This document shows, piece by piece, positions 1 through 40,743 of a stretch of 43,632 nucleotides of DNA. The notes beneath the pieces are model-generated. The model searched no databases. It was given only the letters and a program-made list of their open reading frames with translations, and was not told the DNA's origin. Both the position numbers and the translations under genes were made by a program. Origin of the DNA: a virus. The stretch lies in IMG/VR virus record IMGVR_UViG_3300047667_001165, positions 1-43,632 of that record. One strand, given 5' to 3'. Position 1 is the stretch's first letter. Each line of letters opens with the position of its first letter.

Positions 1-3000
1 TTAAGTTTACTACAACGTCATCATTAGATTTCCAAATAGCTTGAAGACTTCCATCAGAGGGGTCGCCAAAAGCCATAGCCATCTTTTCTCTTTCAAAATA
101 CATAAGCCATTCACGTTTGCTGTTTCCATAGTCGTACTTAGCAATAATACTTTCAGAACCTGCAATTGCTGCATTATCATTTTTCGCCCTAGCTGTAACC
201 GACAAGTTGTTGGTAATATCTAAATCCGTGTTGTCAGGAACTGATATATAATCATTCGACCCATCGAAAAGAGCATAGCCCTCATAGACATTAGCTGTGC
301 TTGGTGATACAACACCACCTAGCGCAACGTTCTTAAAATCGAATGTTGATTCTGCATCGTTGTGTCCTGCCACTGGAATGTTTCTTAGTGTGTTACCAAG
401 AGCATCAGTGTCAGCTGAAGTTAATTTAGGGATTCTTATGTTCGCTGGTGAACCTGCAACTGTTCCATCATTAGGAAAGTTAAGTGTTGAACCATCAAGA
501 AACACTCTACGAGGTGAACCTACAACTGTACCGTTATTTGAACCAGTTTGGTCCAGCCATTTTGCATCTGTGTTTCCATAGCCTCCAACACTCCATGCTA
601 CTGTATCGCTCAAATTAGTAATAGACACGTCTGAAATAATTCCTATAAAACGTCCAGCATTGGTATTATACGCACCGACAGTTAGAGGGGAGGCATTAGC
701 CATTGAATCAATAACTGTTGGGTCAGATTGTGGGGAATAAGTAGATTCCGCCCCATCAATAAATATTTTAGTAGCAGTGCTGTTTGAATTAGATATTATA
801 AAAATAAGTTCGTGTTCCAGACCGTCAGTTACGTCAATATTACCTGAAATTACTACTTGGTCTGTACCATCCCCTAGGAGAATAGTTGGTTGTCCTGAGT
901 TTAAGTAGCACAACCACCTAGCTGTTCCACTACCGCCAGCTTTTGAAGCTAAAGCTTTCACACCATCATCGTCTGAGGTAGCAATAGTGACTTTTACTTT
1001 AAACCCTGCGTCATAATCTAAAACATCAATATCACCGTAGAGAACAGCATCATCAGCACCATCAAAATACATACGTTCATCACCTACTGGTATTACTGTA
1101 TCAAGCCAGTCTTCATCTGTGTTTCCATAGCCATTCCAACCTGCAACACCATTGACGGTAATATTAGATATTGACCCCTCAAAAGTGAGTGTAAAAGCGT
1201 CGATGGTATTGTTGTATCTTCCCCCAAACATTAAAGGGAAATTATTATTTATTGTTGTTTGGTCAATACTAGAAGTTCCTTCTGATATTGTATCGAAGAA
1301 TACTTCATAAGTAGTTCCATCAGATATTATTCTAATAGTATGAAAGTCTCCATCATTAGCACCTGCTATTGTAATAGGTGTGCTTGAACCAGCACTAAGA
1401 GTGACGACTACATTAGAGTCATTAGCTAATATCGAAATAGTTTTAGCTGAAGTCCCTCCACCATTTCCTTGATGAGCTATATACGCTGTTTGATTAGCTG
1501 TTCCTATATAACTAACAGTCATATCGAAAGCACCACTAATATCTTGGACTGTTTCTGTTGTCACTAAATTATCCACACCATCAAAGTGCATATACTTATT
1601 AAACCCAGTGTTAATATTGTAATGGAAAACATCTTGTGTGCTACCCCAGAATGTACTTTCTGTGATGTTTGTTGCTGTCCCATGATTTCCATTGCCTGAA
1701 ACGTCATTGATTCTTGTTCCTGCTCCTTCTGAGAATGGGTAATTCAATTGAAGAACTCCTGCTTTGTAGATTTTAACTCCCCACATTTTACCATCGAATG
1801 TCTCCCATGAAGTTGCTGTCCCACGTTCAAGCATTGCACTGTTGAGTTCAATATCTCCAGATAGGGTTTGAGTATCGTTTAAAGTTCCGTTTATTTTGAA
1901 TGTGACGCTTGTTCCTACACGAACCAACGATATTTTATAGTCTGTTCCTGTCAAGAATGTAAATCCATTGAAGTTTACATACCCACCAGCATTATCATAA
2001 ATTGCAAGCCTCCCAGAGTCATTTAATGTAACCCGTGAAGTCGAACCACCACCATCACTGTTGGCTAATATATGTCTTCCTGTAACATCATCAGCATTTA
2101 TATTAACCTCAATCTCAAAATCGCCATCAAGAACAATCGCTGTTGTGAATGTTACACCGTCGTCATTACCATCGCCATGACCACAATTACTCCCCTCAAT
2201 TAAAGCATAAGGTTTAACGAGTCCAGAGTTTTGCAAAGTGTTTCCGAATACATCAAGAGTTGGGAGTGCTTCGTCTCGTGGAACGTATGTTGTTCCCTCA
2301 ATTGCAACACCGTTTACGATTACGTTTGAGATGTATTGTGAAGTGATGTCCCAATTTGTATCAGGAGAGTAACCTCCTAAATAAACAGGGTCTGTTCTTG
2401 TGATGTTTGATATAACAATCTCATGGTTTTCATCGTCAGTAAGCAAAGTATAAAGTTCAGCACGCGTCCCACTAAAGGCTACACCGTCGATTGTAACTAC
2501 AAGCGTTCCGTAGCTACCAGAAATAGCAGTGCTGGTAGAGCCAGAATCCATAGCGAGTAGGAAAACGGTAGCAGAGTTACTAATAATGATAAATTGAGTT
2601 GTCGCACCGTTATTATTAAATGTGAATGATAAATCGGTCAAAGCAATGCTTGGAGAGATAAGCGTGTCATTTCCTATAAAGTAATTACTATACCCAACTT
2701 GATTTTGGTAACTATAAACATCTTGTGTTGCGTGGAAAGTTGAGAGTGTAGCATTTGTAATTACACCGTGGTTACCGTTTCCAGAACTGTCAAAAGATGT
2801 TGTACCATCGACCTCGTCCATTTTGTAGAACACTTGAAGAACTCCAGCTTTGTATATTTTAACTCCCCACATTTTACCATCGAATGTCTCCCATGAAGTT
2901 GCTGTTCCACGAAGAAGCATCGCACTATTTAGAGTAATATCCCCAGTTACGGGTTGGGTATCTTCTAAAACATCGTTTACTGTGAGGGTTACGCTTGTCC

Positions 3001-3442
3001 CTGTACGAACCAAAAACACTTTATAGTCAGTTCCTGTTAGGAAAGTGAATCCAGTAAAGTTTACAACAGTATTACTATCATTAGAGATATTAAGATATCC
3101 AACATAAGTAAAAGAGATACGTCCATTACCCGATACAGCAGAATTAGCAAATATATGACGTTCAGTAACGTCGTCACCGTTCATATTAAACTCAATCTCA
3201 AAGTCTCCGTCAAGAACAATTGCTGTTGTGAATGTGATTCCATCATCTGTACCATCACCATCAAAACACTTCCCTTCTAACAGAGGTCGTTTAGATGTCC
3301 CAGTCTGATTTCTTGTTTTACTGTAGAATTTGTTTCCTTCTATCTCGGCACCCTGATACAATAACCCAGAGAGAGATAGAGAGTCAAGTTCCCCGTATCC
3401 CGCACGCTGGACCATATTTGGTTGTAATGTAACTGAGTCCAT
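1..3442 (-). CDS. LamG-repeat tail fibre / adhesin, C-terminus beyond the left edge
   Basis: The reading frame is open from the ATG at 3442 to the left edge of the window, giving at least 1147 residues; the C-terminus lies outside. The protein is made of repeated beta-sandwich (LamG / concanavalin-like) modules: FDG-D-D motifs, TFTTAIVLDGDFEIE-type strands and the block WETFDGKMWGVKIYKAGVLQ occur twice with an offset of about 1086 bp, and GYGNTD..WLD recurs further on. Such modules bind carbohydrate, so a receptor- or surface-glycan-binding tail fibre is inferred. The start lies 3 nt after the stop of the upstream gene, so the two are probably co-transcribed. Low-complexity threonine-, asparagine- and glycine-rich composition fits a virion fibre. 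No catalytic motif was recognised. It could instead be a head-decorating adhesin. Confidence 0.75.
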   Translation of the reverse strand, partial: MDSVTLQPNMVQRAGYGELDSLSLSGLLYQGAEIEGNKFYSKTRNQTGTSKRPLLEGKCFDGDGTDDGITFTTAIVLDGDFEIEFNMNGDDVTERHIFANSAVSGNGRISFTYVGYLNISNDSNTVVNFTGFTFLTGTDYKVFLVRTGTSVTLTVNDVLEDTQPVTGDITLNSAMLLRGTATSWETFDGKMWGVKIYKAGVLQVFYKMDEVDGTTSFDSSGNGNHGVITNATLSTFHATQDVYSYQNQVGYSNYFIGNDTLISPSIALTDLSFTFNNNGATTQFIIISNSATVFLLAMDSGSTSTAISGSYGTLVVTIDGVAFSGTRAELYTLLTDDENHEIVISNITRTDPVYLGGYSPDTNWDITSQYISNVIVNGVAIEGTTYVPRDEALPTLDVFGNTLQNSGLVKPYALIEGSNCGHGDGNDDGVTFTTAIVLDGDFEIEVNINADDVTGRHILANSDGGGSTSRVTLNDSGRLAIYDNAGGYVNFNGFTFLTGTDYKISLVRVGTSVTFKINGTLNDTQTLSGDIELNSAMLERGTATSWETFDGKMWGVKIYKAGVLQLNYPFSEGAGTRINDVSGNGNHGTATNITESTFWGSTQDVFHYNINTGFNKYMHFDGVDNLVTTETVQDISGAFDMTVSYIGTANQTAYIAHQGNGGGTSAKTISILANDSNVVVTLSAGSSTPITIAGANDGDFHTIRIISDGTTYEVFFDTISEGTSSIDQTTINNNFPLMFGGRYNNTIDAFTLTFEGSISNITVNGVAGWNGYGNTDEDWLDTVIPVGDERMYFDGADDAVLYGDIDVLDYDAGFKVKVTIATSDDDGVKALASKAGGSGTARWLCYLNSGQPTILLGDGTDQVVISGNIDVTDGLEHELIFIISNSNSTATKIFIDGAESTYSPQSDPTVIDSMANASPLTVGAYNTNAGRFIGIISDVSITNLSDTVAWSVGGYGNTDAKWLDQTGSNNGTVVGSPRRVFLDGSTLNFPNDGTVAGSPANIRIPKLTSADTDALGNTLRNIPVAGHNDAESTFDFKNVALGGVVSPSTANVYEGYALFDGSNDYISVPDNTDLDITNNLSVTARAKNDNAAIAGSESIIAKYDYGNSKREWLMYFEREKMAMAFGDPSDGSLQAIWKSNDDVVVNL
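1750..3290 (-). repeat. Internal duplicated LamG module (offset about 1083-1086 bp)
   Basis: Two stretches of the fibre gene, roughly 1750-2200 and 2836-3280, are near-copies of each other. The best conserved part is around 1751-1825 against 2837-2911, where only a few bases differ. The offset is a multiple of three, so both copies are in frame. This is a tandem duplication of one LamG-type module of about 360 codons and a likely site of recombination between fibre variants. Confidence 0.75.
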
Positions 3443-5413: not shown

Positions 5414-5899
5414 CTAAAGGAAAGGAACCTTATTATCTTTAAGATGTTTTTCACTAACAATCATAAACTTCCAACCTTTCTTTTTAGCGAAGTCATTTGC
5501 AGCTTCCCATTTAGATTTGTTAATTATCCACATTTTAGTTTCGTAAAGGAGAGTTGATCTCTTCTTTTTCTTGGTAGCTTTGGGTCTTTTGTTCTCTTTG
5601 ATTGCTTTGATCTCCCTCTCGGGTTTAATCTCAACAATTATGATTCCTTGATTTTTTGTTTCGACATATAAATCCACCCAATATTGACAAACCCTTTTCT
5701 TGACTTTGTTATAATAAGGAACCCAAATAGTCTCACTACCCCATTTGAGGATATTGGATGATTTTTCAACTCTCCACATATATTCAAACTCCAATTGAGA
5801 ACGATACTCGATTGGAGTTTGGTTTATATTCTTTTCGGGGTATCTTGGTTTGTAGATACCTTGGTGATATGATGGTCTTGGTTTTCTGTTCTTAGCCAT
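5414..5899 (-). CDS. 4: Head completion protein, T4 gp4 family
   Basis: The 161-residue sequence follows the layout of T4 gp4 (about 150 aa): a basic N-terminus with Y-PRYPEK, the block TPIEYRSQLEFEYMWRVE, then KWGSETIWVPYYNKVKKRVC, a Y-VDLYVE strand, the acidic-lysine core IIVEIKPEREIKAIK, and a C-terminal WEAANDFAKKKGWKFMIVSE helix-strand. In T4 this protein acts late in head assembly, after DNA packaging and before tail joining. The D...E-IK pattern resembles TnsA/Holliday-resolvase-type nuclease folds, an established similarity of the family. It lies 5' of the small fibre genes and about 170 nt after a promoter-like repeat. Confidence 0.8.
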   Translation of the reverse strand: MAKNRKPRPSYHQGIYKPRYPEKNINQTPIEYRSQLEFEYMWRVEKSSNILKWGSETIWVPYYNKVKKRVCQYWVDLYVETKNQGIIIVEIKPEREIKAIKENKRPKATKKKKRSTLLYETKMWIINKSKWEAANDFAKKKGWKFMIVSEKHLKDNKVPFL

Positions 5900-5960
5900 C
5901 TACTATTATATTACATCAATTCTGGGCGTATGCTGAATCTCCATCCCATTCTTAACGCAT

Positions 5961-6023
5961 ATCCCTTAAATATTAATTATAGTGTACGTTACGTTAGAAG
6001 TTAATTATTTAATCGGAGTATAC
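5961..6023 (-). repeat. 63-bp direct repeat, distal copy, containing a promoter-like element
   Basis: This copy matches the sequence at 7564-7626 in 57 of 63 positions with no gap, and flanks the SGNH-fibre gene on its 3' side. On the minus strand it carries a TTAACT box (5999-6004), a 17-nt spacer and a perfect TATAAT (5976-5981), so it could drive the gp4 gene. It also retains the coding end of the propeller gene (GTATACTCCGATTAA), which shows that it is a duplicate of that gene junction. Confidence 0.8.
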
Positions 6024-6046
6024 ACACCACCAATCAAGGTGGTGTG
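6023..6046 (-). terminator. 9-bp perfect hairpin after the SGNH fibre gene
   Basis: CACACCACC at 6023-6031 pairs perfectly with GGTGGTGTG at 6038-6046 around a 6-nt loop. The hairpin begins 21 nt past the stop of the minus-strand SGNH gene. It is not followed by a clear T-run on that strand, so it may be a weak terminator or a 3'-end-protecting stem rather than a classical intrinsic terminator. Confidence 0.4.
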
Positions 6047-6067
6047 GTTGATATTCTTTTAGAGGAT

Positions 6068-7549
6068 CTATGGTAGCAAGAGTGCGGCTAAGTGAGCTGC
6101 ACCGATATCACCGAAGTGTGTGGACGCGACCGAGAATCTGTCATCACGGCATGAGCGAGGTACGATTCCTTTGCCTTGGTCCATGCTGTCGTCAGAGTCG
6201 AGAGGCGTGTAGTTGTCAGAGTTGACGAACCAGTCTTGGGTGTCGAAGTAAGTGACATACGGTGTGGCATCACAGAAAGGCTTTACGATAGCTTGGATTT
6301 GGGCTCCGTATGCGGTGCGGTCGTCTATGGTGGCGTCGGTGGCGTCGGTGACTGTGCGGTTAGGTATGCCTAGGACAAGGATGTTCTGGTTTCCAGCCAG
6401 AAGGAAGCGATTGATTGCGTCAAGGGTGTTTTGGGCGGCGGTTGCCATGGCGCTATTACCGTCGTTGTTACCCATGAATATGATGGTGTATTTGCGGCGC
6501 AGGTCAGCTAGTGACGTTCCGTTGATACGGGAAATTATAGATACTGAAGTTTCTCCACCAACACCGTTCAGGTCGTGGTCGTGTAGTCCCATTCCCGTGG
6601 CGAAACCTTTGACATAAGACGGGTCCGCGAAGGACGCGGTGGTGAGTGAGTCTCCCCATGCACCTACGCCGAGGTTGACTCGTATATATTCCCGCCAGTG
6701 TGCTGGTTTAAGTTGTTCAACAAGGGGGTAGTAGTCCGACCCGATTGCTTTTTTGTAGTAAAGAACTCCTCCCGATTCCCCGTCAAGTAACGTGGAAGCA
6801 GCAGCGGCAGTCTGAAAGGATTTACCGATGTGAAGAGGTTGGTCCGTGGTCTCGGTATAGGATGAATACAGTGCGGCATCCGTGTCAAGAAGGCCGACTC
6901 CGCTTACTAACAAAGTCATTTTAGCTCCGTCATTTTGCATGAGGGTAGTGTATCCCACACCGGCTTCGATAGGGCTGATACGAAGTTGGTCGAAGTTACC
7001 AGTGCTGTTAGCACGACGGCAATAGAAAGTGATTTCATCGCTTGCGGCCCATGTCATCCAGTTAACCTCGGAGAAGTCGGAAGAAGTGGCGGTTGACTTG
7101 GCACTACTAAGCAATCCGTCAGAGGTAAGCGCGTCATGTCGATGTGTGATGATCGCTGTGAATGCGTTGCGTGCATTACCTAGGTCGCCTGTCACGGCTG
7201 ACATGGTTGTGCCGTCAAAAGTGCGGGCTTTGTAGAACGATTGGTCGGATGTAGGGTCAGGCAAGGAACCAACGATGGTGGCGTTGTTACTGCCTCGGAT
7301 GTCCGTGATGGTCGCGCCGTCTTCGCCCATGATCCAGACATTGTCGGCCAAAGGGATTAACGTGTCTAGCGGGTTACTGGTTAAATCAATATCAGTAGTT
7401 GAAGCATCAGAACCTGTTAGGGTTAAGGTTGATCCGGTTAAACTTTGCGTGTATGTGGTATCAACTGCTCCTATCTGATTCCTGATAGCTGTCTTTTCTT
7501 CTTCTGAATTGGCATCACCCAAAACAAATTTAGTCGCAGCTAATGACAT
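6068..7549 (-). CDS. Chimeric tail fibre: phage-type N-terminus, LamG-like domain and SGNH hydrolase
   Basis: From the ATG at 7549 the protein has 493 residues; an in-frame ATG at 7570 would add MGYEGRE, but a promoter -10 box ends only 8 nt before it. Residues 1 to about 65 look like a phage fibre anchor. The middle resembles a LamG-type sandwich (VWIMGEDG, TFDGTTMSAV). The last 200 residues show SGNH-hydrolase blocks: GAWGDSLTT (nucleophile Ser), an intermediate VGGET Gly, MGNND (Asn) and a terminal STHFGDIGAAHLA (catalytic His), although the usual Asp three residues before that His is not present. Such domains deacetylate or de-esterify surface polysaccharide. G+C rises sharply after the first 65 codons (41 of 60 at 6301-6360, against 21 of 60 at 8401-8460), indicating acquisition of the enzyme part from a higher-GC source. 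Confidence 0.8.
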   Translation of the reverse strand: MSLAATKFVLGDANSEEEKTAIRNQIGAVDTTYTQSLTGSTLTLTGSDASTTDIDLTSNPLDTLIPLADNVWIMGEDGATITDIRGSNNATIVGSLPDPTSDQSFYKARTFDGTTMSAVTGDLGNARNAFTAIITHRHDALTSDGLLSSAKSTATSSDFSEVNWMTWAASDEITFYCRRANSTGNFDQLRISPIEAGVGYTTLMQNDGAKMTLLVSGVGLLDTDAALYSSYTETTDQPLHIGKSFQTAAAASTLLDGESGGVLYYKKAIGSDYYPLVEQLKPAHWREYIRVNLGVGAWGDSLTTASFADPSYVKGFATGMGLHDHDLNGVGGETSVSIISRINGTSLADLRRKYTIIFMGNNDGNSAMATAAQNTLDAINRFLLAGNQNILVLGIPNRTVTDATDATIDDRTAYGAQIQAIVKPFCDATPYVTYFDTQDWFVNSDNYTPLDSDDSMDQGKGIVPRSCRDDRFSVASTHFGDIGAAHLAALLLP

Positions 7550-7563
7550 TTCTCTACCTTCGT

Positions 7564-7626
7564 ATCCCATAAATATTAATTATAGCATAAGCTACGTTAA
7601 AAGTTAATTATTTAATCGGAGTATAC
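7564..7626 (-). promoter_or_regulatory. 63-bp direct repeat, proximal copy, with sigma70-like promoter
   Basis: This copy spans the end of the propeller gene (stop at 7612-7614) and the start of the SGNH-fibre gene. On the minus strand it has TTAACT (7602-7607), a 17-nt spacer and TATAAT (7579-7584). Transcription would begin around 7572, which favours the downstream ATG at 7549 as the true start. The same two boxes and spacing are kept in the second copy at 5961-6023. Confidence 0.5.
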
Positions 7627-7842
7627 GCCACAAGACCCATCACTATACATCGACCCAGCCTCATCAAAGTATAATACCTCATTACAACTCGGCTCTGTGG
7701 AATATATTCCACAAGGCCCGCCAGTATATCTCGCACCGTCCCCACCGAAGTATAATACCTCATTACAACTCGGCTCTGTGGAATATACAACACAAGGCCC
7801 GCCAGTATATCTAGCACCGTCCCCACCAAAGTATAGTGCGTC
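7612..7842 (-). repeat. 81-bp in-frame tandem repeats (27 residues)
   Basis: Two nearly identical 81-bp units occupy 7762-7842 and 7681-7761, followed towards the C-terminus by a diverged partial unit down to the stop. Each unit encodes one LYFGGDGARYTGGPC module. Variation in copy number would lengthen or shorten the protein tip without a frameshift. Confidence 0.9.
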
Positions 7843-9513
7843 AATACATTCACAAAGAGAATGACAACTTAACTCGGGTATACTCAACTCCTCAAGAGAT
7901 AGTGGTGTGAAATTGGGGTTAAATAGTTGAGGCTCTATACCTTCACACGACTGTGAACCCAAACTCCAGTTAATTTTAGTAACAAAACTAACATCGTTTG
8001 CGGGTAGACTATCGGGGATTCCCGAGTCAACATTAAACACCTCGACACCGATCAATCTATTTTTGATATAAGTTATTATATCAAAAACAACATCCAAAGT
8101 TCTATCCCATGCATGGCAAGAAACAATCTCATCATGTCGGTGGAAGGCTTGATGGTTTAGCACAATGACATCACTTCCGGTGAACTCGGGTGTTTGGCCG
8201 ATTACTATGAATTGTCTTTCGCCCGAAATGTCTACAATTTCATATAATAAATGTCCGCCTCCTATTATAACCCCTTCGCTTTCTAGTTTAGTATAAACGT
8301 CTTCTATGGTTAACCCGTCACCCTCGATTTCTAAAAAGTCATCTTCGATAGGGTATAAAACCCCTACATCGACAGAAACGTAATTACTTTCGGCGTCTAG
8401 TGTTGATACAAACTTCCCAACAATCTTTTGGTTAAACGAGTTAAGCAGAGTGTAAAGCTTTTGAATACTGTCGTTCACCACCATATCACTATTCAGTTCA
8501 TCAGGATGAATCAATATAGTCTCTTTGGGAAACGCCAACCCGTCCTCGCTTAAAATAGTAGTAACGAATTGGTATTCGATTTCCCTAACCACAGAACCGC
8601 CATCAATAACCATCAAAGATGTCCCGTAACGATCAATAGAAATTAGATCCTCTCTGGTATTGGAATATATCTCCAGACCATTAAAGGCATACTTCTTCAG
8701 TAATGTGGTTGACCCAACCCATAAGAATCCTTCTTGGGTTTTGTCAACAAGAATCTTATCCACTTCGGGTATCCCGTGTCTGATAACTTGGTCTTTAAAA
8801 ATTAATTCGGAAGTGGTTACTTTGTAAATTACACCATCCACAACATCAACATCAACTACCCCCGCTACATCTATATTCACTACAAAAGATAGAAACTCAT
8901 TATAGTGTTTTAAAACTTGGGTGTCTTGATCGAAAATATAAAGCTGACCCTTATCTAAAATAATCTTGACAGGATCTTTGAATTTATATTCGGAAGATTT
9001 GGAGCCAACCCCACCGAAGAAAGTTAGGAACTTGAAAGGATTAGATTCGATGTCCAGCTTTAAAACAAAATTACCATCCAATACAAACAAAACATCACCA
9101 TTTAAAGCAACATCTCGGATATCAAAGAATCGCCCAAACTGGGTTTGTGTTATAGTCTGTTGTAAAACACCTTTCTGATAAATTGTTATTTCATTTTTGG
9201 TGAACGTTACCTCAAATTTATCGGAAGTTTTCAAACCCAATATATCGTCACCATATTCGGGGCATGTTAAAGTTTCTAACGGTAGGACCGAATTGTATAT
9301 TTTAGCGAAGCCCTCCAAGTATTCGACATTAGCGTATACCTTTTCGAATAGAGGGTTAATATTCTCTGAAAAGTAGAAATCATAAGGAACTCTGAGATCT
9401 TCCTCTTGAAAAGGGAGAATGAAAGAACTTCTAATAGTTCTAAAAACACCAGAATCATACGCCTCTAAATCGTCAAGGAGTATGTCGGAATCTAATGGGG
9501 TAATGATGCTCAC
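7612..9513 (-). CDS. Propeller-like tail protein with C-terminal 27-residue repeats, 633 aa
   Basis: A GTG start is used (GTG AGC ATC ATT). Residues about 90-340 contain five or more blade-like segments with paired strands (VLFVLDGNFVLKLDIE, QLYIFDQDTQVLKHY, GFLWVGSTTLLKKYAF, SLMVIDGGSVVREIEY), suggesting a beta-propeller of NHL/WD-like type. The last 75 residues are repeats of LYFGGDGARYTGGPC-IYSTEPSCN, each with two Cys. The protein sits between baseplate-side genes and fibre genes, so a tail or baseplate-peripheral structural role is inferred. The Cys-, Tyr- and Gly-rich repeats could form a distal binding or oligomerisation tip. I do not recognise a named family. Confidence 0.65.
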   Translation of the reverse strand: MSIITPLDSDILLDDLEAYDSGVFRTIRSSFILPFQEEDLRVPYDFYFSENINPLFEKVYANVEYLEGFAKIYNSVLPLETLTCPEYGDDILGLKTSDKFEVTFTKNEITIYQKGVLQQTITQTQFGRFFDIRDVALNGDVLFVLDGNFVLKLDIESNPFKFLTFFGGVGSKSSEYKFKDPVKIILDKGQLYIFDQDTQVLKHYNEFLSFVVNIDVAGVVDVDVVDGVIYKVTTSELIFKDQVIRHGIPEVDKILVDKTQEGFLWVGSTTLLKKYAFNGLEIYSNTREDLISIDRYGTSLMVIDGGSVVREIEYQFVTTILSEDGLAFPKETILIHPDELNSDMVVNDSIQKLYTLLNSFNQKIVGKFVSTLDAESNYVSVDVGVLYPIEDDFLEIEGDGLTIEDVYTKLESEGVIIGGGHLLYEIVDISGERQFIVIGQTPEFTGSDVIVLNHQAFHRHDEIVSCHAWDRTLDVVFDIITYIKNRLIGVEVFNVDSGIPDSLPANDVSFVTKINWSLGSQSCEGIEPQLFNPNFTPLSLEELSIPELSCHSLCECIDALYFGGDGARYTGGPCVVYSTEPSCNEVLYFGGDGARYTGGPCGIYSTEPSCNEVLYFDEAGSMYSDGSCGVYSD

Positions 9514-11433: not shown

Positions 11434-11793
11434 TTACTGCTTGTCAATAATGGACATCATCTGCCCTAATACAGGCTTCTTTAGGATTTTGATAGTTTCA
11501 CCCACCATATCCCCCAACTGGAAAGGGTCATCTATGTTGTTGGTAATAGCTACAGCCCACCACAAGTTATAGGTTTCGTAAAACTTCTTGGCGATACTAA
11601 ACAAAGTATCATTGGATTGAACATCATACTCAACGTAATAGGTCGGGTTCATCCCCTCCGTTTCAACATAGATGGTATCCGAAAGATCGTAGAAATAGTT
11701 ACCCTCTTCATCTTGATCAACATAAAACAAGGTCTCTAAATTGTTATTACTGAGGTTTGGTAATTGTGGTAAATCTTTTTGTTTCTCCTTCAC
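11434..11793 (-). CDS. 53: LysM-containing baseplate wedge protein, gp53-like
   Basis: The 119-residue product starts with GTG. Residues about 50-95 form a LysM-like unit: YYVEYDVQSNDTLFSIAKKF then NLWWAVAITNNIDDPFQLGDM. The combination of a Y-V..NDTL-SIA-KFY segment and LWW...NNI-DP is the signature I associate with gp53 baseplate wedge subunits of T4-like marine phages, which are part of the inner wedge of the baseplate and essential for tail assembly. An alternative is a different LysM-bearing baseplate or tail protein. The upstream neighbour is on the opposite strand 17 nt away, so the promoter must lie in or before that small gap. Confidence 0.65.
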   Translation of the reverse strand: MKEKQKDLPQLPNLSNNNLETLFYVDQDEEGNYFYDLSDTIYVETEGMNPTYYVEYDVQSNDTLFSIAKKFYETYNLWWAVAITNNIDDPFQLGDMVGETIKILKKPVLGQMMSIIDKQ

Positions 11794-12097: not shown

Positions 12098-13987
12098 TTA
12101 AAAGTTCCGCAACCAGTCTAAATCCGAATCTTCGGGGTTATTTATAGGCGTGTTTGAAGAGCCAAAATAAATTGATACATTGACTGTAGTATTATTTGCA
12201 GGTAAAGCCATTTGTTCCCTCCGTGTATCGCCGTTACCCTTCATCTTTTCGGAAACAATATGAAACGGTTTCATAGCATCGTCAAATTTCGGTTCCGATA
12301 AATTGAAATATCTTTCCACAATATCGTGATGTAGTGGGAATAACGAATAACAAAACGCATCAACCCTATCGTCATAAACACTTTGGGATTCTCGTTTCCA
12401 ATTACCATTACCCGAACCAGAACCTTCGTGCCTGATGAAAGTATCCATTTCTTCTAGAAGTTTTTCGGATCTGATAGTAATAGTTTTTACCCTGATACCT
12501 CCTCGTTTTCGGCTATTAATGAAGTGGCGAACATTGGATATAACTTTCTTTTTAGTGTTATGGTGATTGGTAATACCAACTTGTCCGTTTTTATTCATGG
12601 CATCTCTCGCTTTTTCATCATGATGGTAGCATATCAATTTAGGATACTGGTGGAACTTCTTCAGCAGTGTGATCAACTCACCACCACCTTTACCGTTGTT
12701 CTCTACAGTGGCATAGCATTGGTTATATCTGTTGAAAATATCAATACATACTAGTGCGAAGTCTTCGACCAAAATAGAATCACAAGCATACTCCGCAACT
12801 TGCTTGGTGTCATATAGGTCGGTGATGTCGGTGATGCATATAGTAGAAGAACATCCGCCAACACCTTCTGCCACATCAACACCCGCAGAGTAAATGTGGT
12901 TTGGTTCCGCATATTCCCATACCTTTAATGATTTATCTCTAGGGTCATTTACATCTGATAGATCTTTAGTTTGGGTGAACATCGGATCTTCTTTATCAGA
13001 CTCCACCTCTTTCTTAAAGTCATTATCATAGAGCTTCTTTTGATTACTACCGAGATCGAACGAGCCGCCGAATTCAACAAAAAATGCTTGCTCCGAACCC
13101 ATCTCAATAATCCTGTCATCATACCAGTCTTGGTCTCGTTTTGGGTGGTCACTCCATAAAATCTCAAAGGGTTTGTATTTTGTTTTTATACCCTTCTTGT
13201 CTTCATCCGTTGCATCGGGTTTGTCTCGCAAAAGTTTTTGATATTTCTTGGCTTTGAAGAAGTATCTAGCAAAAACATTATTCATACCAAAGGGTGTTGA
13301 TATTAGAATACAAAAAGAATCATCTCCTGCTGCTTCCAATGTAGGCGTTAGTGATTGCATAATCTCCTCATCAAGACCCGATTGTCCATTTGCATTAATG
13401 AATGCCGCTTCATCAATAATAAGACTAGTGATAGTAGATCCTCGAAATGCAGTAGAAGAAGTAGAGGTAATTCGGCATAGACATTTGTTATCCAATATAA
13501 TAACACTTTCGTTACATTTCTCAACGAAAGGTTTAAGGAAATACGGTAGATCTTCGAAACTTTCTTGAACCTTTTTAAGGTTTAGTTTTGCCAATTCATA
13601 CTTGTTTCCCAACAATCCGATCTGTTGGATACCGTCAGAGAATATCAATTTCCATAAAATGAATAGGACAACCATTGTAGTTTTAGATGTCTGCCTAGAC
13701 GCATTGAGAACCACCCTGTTGTGGTCTTGGAAGAATTGTAGTGCCTCTCTTTGGATAGGCCAAAGCTGCATGAGTTCCTTCTGTGTGCCCTTTACAAGGA
13801 TGGTATAATAGTTCTCCGCGAAGTATTCAATGGACTCTCTACATCGCTTATACTCCAAAATATGTTCGGGTAATAACTCCATCACCGAACCTTTCTGTAG
13901 CAACTTTTCGTTACCTAGATAATTATTTTGTGTTATAATTTTGGCATCGGGTATCTGGCTTTTTCCCCACAGTCTATCATCTTCCAT
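12098..13987 (-). CDS. 17: Terminase large subunit (gp17), ATPase and nuclease
   Basis: Complete 629-residue DNA-packaging motor. The N-terminal ATPase has the adenine-motif region CRESIEYFAENY (about 49-60), Walker A SRQTSKTT (97-104), Walker B SLIIDEAAF (188-196) and the coupling motif ISTP (229-232). The C-terminal RNase H-like nuclease has Asp in YSAGVDVAEG (D371), Glu in ATVENNG (E429) and the distal DDRVDAF (D539, D540, D543). It docks on the portal, translocates DNA into the prohead and cuts concatemers. A degenerate copy of its ATPase domain lies 46 bp upstream and a strong terminator follows it. The small subunit gp16 and portal gp20 are not in the window. Confidence 0.95.
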   Translation of the reverse strand: MEDDRLWGKSQIPDAKIITQNNYLGNEKLLQKGSVMELLPEHILEYKRCRESIEYFAENYYTILVKGTQKELMQLWPIQREALQFFQDHNRVVLNASRQTSKTTMVVLFILWKLIFSDGIQQIGLLGNKYELAKLNLKKVQESFEDLPYFLKPFVEKCNESVIILDNKCLCRITSTSSTAFRGSTITSLIIDEAAFINANGQSGLDEEIMQSLTPTLEAAGDDSFCILISTPFGMNNVFARYFFKAKKYQKLLRDKPDATDEDKKGIKTKYKPFEILWSDHPKRDQDWYDDRIIEMGSEQAFFVEFGGSFDLGSNQKKLYDNDFKKEVESDKEDPMFTQTKDLSDVNDPRDKSLKVWEYAEPNHIYSAGVDVAEGVGGCSSTICITDITDLYDTKQVAEYACDSILVEDFALVCIDIFNRYNQCYATVENNGKGGGELITLLKKFHQYPKLICYHHDEKARDAMNKNGQVGITNHHNTKKKVISNVRHFINSRKRGGIRVKTITIRSEKLLEEMDTFIRHEGSGSGNGNWKRESQSVYDDRVDAFCYSLFPLHHDIVERYFNLSEPKFDDAMKPFHIVSEKMKGNGDTRREQMALPANNTTVNVSIYFGSSNTPINNPEDSDLDWLRNF

Positions 13988-23158: not shown

Positions 23159-23201
23159 AAGATGAGATTACTATAAAAATTCCTCTTTTCAAGTTTTATA
23201 T

Positions 23202-23320
23202 TATTAATAAGACGTGAGAGAGTGACGTTCTACCGCTAGCTTAGTTTATTTTTATATCAGATCGCGTTTCAATTCCGAACGGAGTTCGGTTTAGATCGCG
23301 CCTCCACATTGACGTTCTGC
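23202..23320 (+). repeat. attC-like site 1 (left boundary, degenerate)
   Basis: The right half is intact: GATCGCGCCTCCACATTGAC followed by GTTCTGC (23314-23320), which opens cassette 1. The left half is damaged: the AAC box reads TATTAAT (23202-23208) and the arm has GACGTTC where the other sites have GACGATC, which weakens the stem. It marks the left edge of the array and may be a remnant site or serve as the entry point. Confidence 0.8.
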
Positions 23321-23656: not shown

Positions 23657-23697
23657 TACTTTAATTAGTAATCACATCAAACTTTTCAAATCCAGAT

Positions 23698-23816
23698 GCA
23701 GAACAAGACGTGGGAGGACGACGATCTACCGCTAACTTAGTTTATTTTTATATTAGATCGCGTTTTAATCCCGAACTACGTTCGGTTTAGATCGCGCCTC
23801 CACATTGACGTTCTGC
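23698..23816 (+). repeat. attC-like site 2
   Basis: Opens with GCAGAAC (23698-23704) and closes with GTTCTGC (23810-23816). The left arm GTGGGAGGACGACGATC pairs with the right arm GATCGCGCCTCCAC, leaving three unpaired bases on the left arm, like the extrahelical bases of true attC sites. The inner hairpin is CCGAAC-TAC-GTTCGG, whereas the other copies have GGA in the loop: the stem is kept while the loop changes. Confidence 0.88.
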
Positions 23817-24207: not shown

Positions 24208-24315
24208 TCGCTTGGGTCCAGATGCGATGATGCCATGAATTTAGGTAATCTTGGATTGTTTGGTTTATTAGGATTCGTTCTTGTTCATAGGTCATATTCA
24301 TACTTAGGCCCAGAT

Positions 24316-24433
24316 GCAGAACAAGGCGTGAGAGGGCGACGATCTACCGCTAGCTTAGTTATGTTTATGTATTATCGCGTTTTAATTCCGAACGGAGTTC
24401 GGTTTAGATCGCGCCTCCACATTGACGTTAGCC
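24316..24433 (+). repeat. attC-like site 3
   Basis: Opens with GCAGAAC (24316-24322), matching the GTTCTGC box that opened cassette 2, and closes with GTTAGCC (24427-24433). The arms GTGAGAGGGCGACGATC and GATCGCGCCTCCAC are conserved. The central AT-rich loop segment differs from the other copies and is a base shorter. Confidence 0.88.
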
Positions 24434-24862: not shown

Positions 24863-24892
24863 GCTTATATTTATCCCTAAAACCATTTGAAG

Positions 24893-25011
24893 GGCTAACA
24901 AGACGTGAGAGAGCGACGATCTACCGCTAACTTAGTTTATTTTTATATTAGATCGCGTTTTAATCCCGAACGGAGTTCGGTTTAGATCGCGCCTCCACAT
25001 TGACGTTCACC
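24893..25011 (+). repeat. attC-like site 4
   Basis: Opens with GGCTAAC (24893-24899), the exact reverse complement of GTTAGCC that opened cassette 3, and closes with GTTCACC (25005-25011). The box change relative to sites 2 and 3 is matched at both ends of the cassette, the most telling sign that these are recombination boxes. The inner hairpin CCGAAC-GGA-GTTCGG is intact. Confidence 0.9.
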
Positions 25012-25884: not shown

Positions 25885-25932
25885 CACATTTAATTAGATG
25901 TCGAAATCAATAGTTCAAGTTTTACTTGAAGA

Positions 25933-26050
25933 GACAACAAGGCGTGGGAGAGCGACGATCTACCGCTAACTTAGTTGAGTTTTATATTAGATCGCGTTTT
26001 AATCCCGAACGGAGTTCGGTTTAGATCGCGCCTCCACTTTGACGTTCATA
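25933..26050 (+). repeat. attC-like site 6
   Basis: Opens with AGACAAC (25933-25939), the exact reverse complement of GTTGTCT of cassette 5, and closes with GTTCATA (26044-26050). The body is of the common type, with the inner hairpin CCGAAC-GGA-GTTCGG and the arm GATCGCGCCTCCAC, so a cassette ending in a common-type site follows one ending in the diverged type. Confidence 0.88.
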
Positions 26051-39481: not shown

Positions 39482-39713
39482 ATTCTTCTAGTATTTCTAT
39501 CTTTTTACGACACTCTTCTTCAAATCTATCTATGACAGTATTGGGTTTTGCTTCATCACATTCCCTATCAAGGAACACGCCATCGGTCCTAGCCTTTTCA
39601 AACTTTATTCGGAAAGCTTCTTGCTTCTCTGAAAGTTCTTCCATACGTTTTGATTCTGGGGATTGAATATTTTCTACATCAATCCCCAGAGATTTGTCAT
39701 CTTTACTACACAT
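39453..39713 (-). CDS. Small coiled-coil-like protein after uvsX, 86 aa
   Basis: 86 residues, extremely charged and helical (SKRMEELSEKQEAFRIKFEKA, then IDRFEEECRKKIEILEEYER). It is predicted to be a single long helix or coiled coil. It overlaps the uvsX stop by 8 nt and the next gene by 29 nt, so it is tightly coupled. It could be a small regulator or mediator of the recombination genes; no family is recognised. Confidence 0.55.
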   Translation of the reverse strand: MCSKDDKSLGIDVENIQSPESKRMEELSEKQEAFRIKFEKARTDGVFLDRECDEAKPNTVIDRFEEECRKKIEILEEYERQKRERN

Positions 39714-40743
39714 CTTGTTCTACTTCAATCTCTACAGGTTCTCCTTTAAGACTGCCCAAAGAATAACGATCTTTGACTGCTTTTTGGAATGTTACATCGT
39801 CGATGATAGAACCCCAGAATTCAGCAGTATTGGTATCCTTATTCCTTAGTTTAGTCTCACCGCCATCTTTGGAATACCAACCCTGTGTCGGGACAGTAAC
39901 ATGACCAGTTGCCCTTGCAATGTCTAATAGCGAAGAATATTTATCCAGACCACCTTCAAAGGTAACTTTGATTGGAAACTTTGATTTCTCTTTAGTTAGG
40001 CGACTTTTGTGAACGTTAACTATGAAGTTACTCCCGACGAATTCTTTTCCGTCTTTTTCTTGTTGCTTTCCGATTACCCAAATGTTGTTCGGTGTAAGCT
40101 CCATACCTTTACCTCCTGCGATAACGGTCTTAGAATACAACTCCTGAGTCTCATAAGTTTTGGCGATAGCAACTAGAGGGATTTTCTTAACGTTTAGGTG
40201 CGGGTTAATAATTCTCCAGAAAGAGCCAATCTCTTTTGCTCTGGTCATATCCACTTTAACATTTCCGTCTTCCGCATCAGTCATTTCTTTTTTGGATGCA
40301 ATCTGACCTAAAGAATCAATTCCGATGAATACTTTATCTTCTTCGGTAAGATCTTTAAGGGTTTTTGCTATATCCAATTTAAGGTCTTCGATGGACATAA
40401 TAGGCTTGTGATATACTCTCGAAGTATCAATCCCCACAGACTCCATTGTATCGCTACTACAACCATACTCTGCATCAAAAAAGATGAAGATGGATTCGGG
40501 ACAAGAATCCATATATTCTTTGGCCAAGATTAGCATAAACAATGTTTTGAATGTCTTGGAGTTACCCGCAATAACCAAAGATCCTCTTGAGAATCCACCA
40601 CCTTTTACTCTAGCCGATAGAGCAATATCCAAAGCTGGAACCCCTGTCGTATAGAACTCCTCAACAAAAAACTTAGAGTTTTTGATTGTATCCGCACCTT
40701 CAATTGTGTTGCTCTTTTTGAGCTTTTTTAGTAGTTCGTTCAT
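39706..40743 (-). CDS. uvsX: Recombinase UvsX (RecA/Rad51 family)
   Basis: 345 residues, T4 UvsX being 391. The RecA fold is clear: TTGVPALDIALSARVKGGGF, Walker A GNSKTFKT (60-67), FIFFDAEYGC, Walker B VFIGIDSLGQI (138-148), a DNA-binding loop region with TRAKEIGSFWRII, VAIAKTYETQE and VIAGGKGMELTPNNIWVIGK. It forms filaments on gp32-coated ssDNA, performs strand exchange and starts recombination-dependent replication. It is 4 nt after a small acidic gene and followed by two overlapping unknown genes and then gp41. Confidence 0.93.
   Translation of the reverse strand: MNELLKKLKKSNTIEGADTIKNSKFFVEEFYTTGVPALDIALSARVKGGGFSRGSLVIAGNSKTFKTLFMLILAKEYMDSCPESIFIFFDAEYGCSSDTMESVGIDTSRVYHKPIMSIEDLKLDIAKTLKDLTEEDKVFIGIDSLGQIASKKEMTDAEDGNVKVDMTRAKEIGSFWRIINPHLNVKKIPLVAIAKTYETQELYSKTVIAGGKGMELTPNNIWVIGKQQEKDGKEFVGSNFIVNVHKSRLTKEKSKFPIKVTFEGGLDKYSSLLDIARATGHVTVPTQGWYSKDGGETKLRNKDTNTAEFWGSIIDDVTFQKAVKDRYSLGSLKGEPVEIEVEQDV

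Follow-up and report, generated by a model that had tools for sequence, protein, structure and literature searches.

The analysed window comprises all 43,632 nucleotides (43.6 kb) of the IMG/VR virus record IMGVR_UViG_3300047667_001165 and has a GC content of 39%. All genes around the locus of interest are encoded by the minus strand and follow one another as terminase large subunit (TerL), a LysM-type gene, presumably gp53-like by analogy to T4-like phages, a propeller-like gene, a fibre-like gene and gp4 (Table 1). Two further IMG/VR contigs of 139.6 and 37.8 kb carry this stretch with 100% identity wherever compared and constitute lineage 1 together with the window; genome-wide counts were taken in the former, a contig of 139,595 bases of the same phage. 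The phage encodes gp46- and gp47-like proteins, a gp55-like late sigma factor (L066:7314-8159; phrog_234, 1.6e-13) and a UvsX-like recombinase, a machinery which could act on short homologies. Searches of the window for Rfam families and tRNAs yielded neither, and its first 25 kb found no match in the phage collection by megablast.

Table 1. Features in and around the fibre slot, in window positions unless another contig is named
Feature	Position	Strand	Remarks
Terminase large subunit	12098-13987	-	
LysM-type gene, presumably gp53-like	11434-11793	-	
Propeller-like protein, 633 aa	7612-9513	-	upstream border; Cys-rich 27-aa tandem repeats at C-terminus
Repeat J	7563-7626	-	last 5 propeller codons, putative promoter TATAATTA (7577-7584), first bases of fibre gene ATGGGATA
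Fibre-like protein, 500 aa	6068-7570	-	slot occupant
Fibre anchor, residues 1-64	7379-7570	-	conserved with lineage 2
9-bp GC-rich hairpin CACACCACC-TTGATT-GGTGGTGTG	6023-6046	-	between fibre stop and J'
Repeat J'	5960-6023	-	copy of J upstream of gp4; putative promoter TATAATTA (5974-5981)
12-codon mini-ORF, MGWRFSIRPELM and stop	5911-5949	-	precedes gp4
gp4 head-completion protein	5414-5899	-	downstream border; phrog_218 head closure, 1.6e-36; matches gp4 of T4-like phages
UvsX-like recombinase	39706-40743	-	phrog_97, 1.6e-70
Structured repeat, ca. 112-123 nt, window copies	23196-23318, 23692-23814, 24309-24431, 24887-25009, 25926-26048		
Structured repeat, copies in 139.6-kb contig	L062:9041-9150, L062:9540-9661, L065:7859-7926 (partial)		

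The propeller-like protein gave no hit in Pfam, in PHROGs or, by tblastn, in the phage collection, and a weak match to NHL repeats (E=0.007); profile searches of the genome contigs with the propeller and gp4 alignments returned no relatives. Three tandem repeats of 81 nt each (7618-7860, minus strand) at the end of its gene code for the Cys-rich units, the last of which enters J. Residues 305-461 of the slot occupant form an SGNH/GDSL hydrolase domain (Pfam PF13472, E=1.1e-10), and the protein presumably functions as a receptor-binding fibre. The first 195 nt of its gene have a GC content of 39% and the rest one of 53%, which bears out the earlier claim of a chimeric gene; this difference suggests a foreign origin of the body, the first ca. 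64 codons being native. Neither a tblastn hit nor any other detectable relative of the SGNH fibre was encoded in the phage records searched, its PDB sequence search returned only a weak, non-significant hydrolase match, and the AlphaFold models of fibre and propeller were poor (mean pLDDT of 34 and 35). Elsewhere in the window, a 1147-aa ORF carries several Laminin-G/ConA-like domains and an internal 300-nt repeat (1680-1979 and 2766-3065; 76%), and is likely a second adhesin gene.

The direct repeats J and J' are identical at 58 of 64 positions (91%) without gaps, in agreement with the 57 of 63 positions given in the original prediction. Its further description of the pair was likewise recovered: the repeats include the five codons with which the propeller gene closes (GTA TAC TCC GAT TAA) and the string TTAACT-17-TATAAT, and they enclose exactly one gene. 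In J', the propeller-end codons are accompanied by a fibre start in which ATG is replaced by AAG, and its end AAGGGATA matches the fibre start in J. A 76-base query located two places only in the 139.6-kb contig, and the best match of the 64-mer beyond this pair reached 36/64 on either strand. Control AT-rich 64-mers of the same genome had best matches within 3 kb of 32 positions on average and of 47 at most, which together with the low next-best match shows that the pair is not due to chance. Promoters elsewhere in this contig with a comparable similarity over 60 bp, named as the finding that would speak against the original prediction, were thus not encountered. The region of the hairpin preceding J' folds with -18.5 kcal/mol over an 85-nt stretch and is devoid of a T run; it is a possible terminator. 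Inspection by eye revealed no comparable GC-rich hairpin at the J' position of lineage 2.

The motif TATAAWTA occurs at 35 sites in the 139.6-kb contig, ten of which precede an ORF start by no more than 60 nt (about 1.3 expected), among them those of the genes for the tail sheath and for a 321-aa and a 482-aa protein of the late region. The sites show no enrichment of a -35 hexamer (p about 0.18). Late promoters of T4 consist of TATAAATA at -13 to -6 and are read by gp55 (PMC1524935). Because of the enrichment of TATAAWTA, the lacking -35 enrichment, the encoded gp55-like sigma factor and the match to the T4 motif, J and J' are best read as candidate T4-type late promoters, and a plain sigma-70 promoter was rejected on the same grounds. 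Accordingly, the prediction of a promoter within the repeats stands as regards a late-type motif, but not in its sigma-70 style, the string TTAACT-17-TATAAT being probably incidental since TATAAWTA sites show no significant -35 signal. The present phage shares with T4 the motif, its position relative to the gene start and the gp55-like sigma factor; unlike in T4, TATAATTA with an A to T exchange at the sixth position is common, and the start codon lies at about +1. Often, the A of the start codon follows the first T of the late-type motif at a distance of 13 nt, which is the transcription start by T4 numbering (in the 139.6-kb contig, e.g. at G001 positions 117791, 126182, 46766, 48413, 44143 and 1744). 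Translation of late genes may thus begin on leaderless mRNAs.

Two further lineages illustrate the variability of the slot. Lineage 2 (L013, L026 and L037) is related to lineage 1 by 65% identity in gp4, 56% in TerL and 47% in the propeller, and has the same gene order but a fibre of 986 aa. The two fibres are 68-69% identical over about residues 1-64, the anchor, and no match was found between their bodies beyond about residue 64; the repetitive body of lineage 2 is similar to putative tail fibre proteins from Pelagibacter phages. In the same place as the mini-ORF of lineage 1, lineage 2 contains one encoding MGYRIAMRPELS and a stop, with conservative changes. Lineage 3 (L039; gp4 62% and TerL 47% identical to lineage 1) also possesses a relative of the propeller, which lacks the Cys-rich 81-nt tandem repeats and whose stop is located one base ahead of the start of gp4; the junction contains neither fibre nor promoter nor mini-ORF. 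Nor does the anchor occur in the remainder of this contig of 55.6 kb, possibly a fragment. Both expectations of the original prediction for relatives, i.e. another fibre gene and no gene between the borders, are thereby realized in lineages 2 and 3, respectively. Judged by these comparisons, the interval between propeller and gp4 is a real fibre slot of variable occupancy with three states. The identity values suggest lineages 1 and 2 to be sisters. Remoter relatives of gp4 or TerL (about 27-40% identity) provided no outgroup with the pair of propeller and gp4; they have no detectable propeller gene and are therefore uninformative about the slot. Only three lineages were found, and contigs of lineage 1, like those of lineage 2, do not differ from one another wherever compared; a swap under way was therefore not observed.

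The repeat pairs provide hints to the history of the locus. In lineage 2, TATAAATAATAACAACATGGG is found exactly twice, at the two slot borders, with 27/29 identity over the extended stretch; control 29-mers of this lineage reach at best 24/29 outside the fibre gene and 27/29 once the repetitive fibre gene is included, and the pair, short at 29 nt, may owe part of its likeness to a promoter consensus specific to this lineage. In lineage 1 as in lineage 2, the upstream and downstream borders of a genome are more alike than the same border across genomes. J' was most likely copied from J and not the reverse, because it carries the propeller-end codons and the dead fibre start. Copying probably took place after the split of lineages 1 and 2 and with the fibre gene already in place, since the anchor predates the split and the repeat pairs are more alike within genomes. 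For the same reasons, the repeats are probably not a scar left by the original insertion, and this reading was rejected. Either gene conversion or a short duplication would account for J'.

We consider it likely that the locus represents a fibre slot of a T4-type phage in which the late-promoter junction was copied within lineage 1. In this scenario, for which we infer promoter activity, fibre function and the direction, timing and mechanism of copying, the fibre retains its anchor of ca. 64 residues while the body is exchanged: the slot holds the SGNH-hydrolase body here and the repetitive one in lineage 2, and is empty in lineage 3. The gp55-like sigma factor would read both J and J', J driving the fibre gene and J' providing gp4 with a late promoter of its own downstream of the fibre. 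J' would have arisen by duplication or gene conversion within lineage 1 after the split from lineage 2, the copy probably being made by the UvsX and gp46/47-type recombination of the phage.

The copied junction may also be viewed as the remnant of a tandem duplication, in which an arrangement J-fibreA-J'-fibreB lost fibreB except for a few bases of its start. The fibre-start-like end of J' and the propeller-end codons at its beginning agree with this course of events, which we nevertheless regard as rather unlikely: no clear remnant of fibreB extends past about 8 bases, and a simple copying event of short extent suffices to account for this sequence. That J and J' resemble each other merely as ordinary late promoters of this phage is highly improbable. 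TATAAWTA indeed recurs before other genes; however, those sites have the 8-mer only, whereas the identity of J and J' spans 64 nt including coding codons, and the poor next-best 64-mer in the genome further disfavours a mere consensus for lineage 1.

The original prediction had proposed that the fibre gene was inserted, or can be lost, through recombination of the two repeats. Such crossovers may delete or exchange the gene, but the repeats probably do not date from the original insertion; with no leftover promoter at its junction, lineage 3 was rejected as an excision product and offers no evidence of repeat-mediated excision. A more far-reaching version, in which the repeats serve as homology arms and whole fibre cassettes are deleted or exchanged between J and J' in the population, would be compatible with the encoded UvsX and gp46/47-like proteins and with the within-genome matching pair retained in each of two lineages. 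In silico, crossovers at all 65 points between J and J' delete the fibre gene and preserve an intact propeller protein (633 aa, ...GSCGVYSD) and one promoter for gp4, as anticipated for an excision; the arrangement would thus permit such an event. We still judge such a cassette unlikely, as lineages 1 and 2 differ by a swap within the gene, past the anchor and not at J, the empty lineage 3 is without promoter remnant, and the slot is identical across all lineage-1 contigs. Compared to these readings, a copied junction in an otherwise modular slot remains the preferred one.

Domain mosaicism of tail fibres with a conserved N-terminal anchor and a replaceable C-terminal body is established, and an SGNH hydrolase domain has been reported in a tail fibre (PMC10684548). 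The present slot corresponds to such modular exchange in its conserved N-terminal ca. 64 residues, the non-homologous bodies at the same genomic position and the SGNH hydrolase domain, and differs in that the promoter-bearing upstream junction is also copied downstream of the gene. While fibre modularity is thus already known, paired late-promoter borders alike within genomes, as seen here in two lineages, are less usual. Unlike the invertible tail-fibre switches of the Mu/P1 type with their inverted repeats, J and J' are direct repeats. PeSLs are mobile regulatory cassettes of T4-type phages (PMC4503421), reportedly described by Arbiol et al. in 2010 and by Comeau et al. in 2014. They are early promoters with a stem-loop and reach a high density in shuffled regions. 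The likeness is that of repeats which carry a promoter and lie next to exchangeable genes of a T4-type phage. J and J' differ from PeSLs by their late-class motif and by being two copies in 139.6 kb instead of many dispersed between shuffled genes; as to the stem-loop, a hairpin lies before J' only. A structured repeat of ca. 112-123 nt without Rfam match is present in 8 copies in the phage, those of the window sitting in gaps between small, often divergent genes; possibly, it is a regulatory cassette dispersed in the manner of PeSLs.

Receptor-binding genes help to decide which bacteria a phage infects. We tentatively put forward, while considering it quite unlikely, that paired late-promoter junctions are kept alike by recombination in each genome and act as homology arms, forming a late-gene counterpart of PeSLs through which the whole fibre gene can be lost or exchanged without a scar. 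If true, a fibre could be dropped or traded with both neighbours remaining intact and expressed, which would account for the continued function of exchange hotspots, and copied promoter junctions would be a concrete sequence sign to seek in other phages. Even without repeat-driven exchange, the locus clearly exemplifies a fibre slot in three states.
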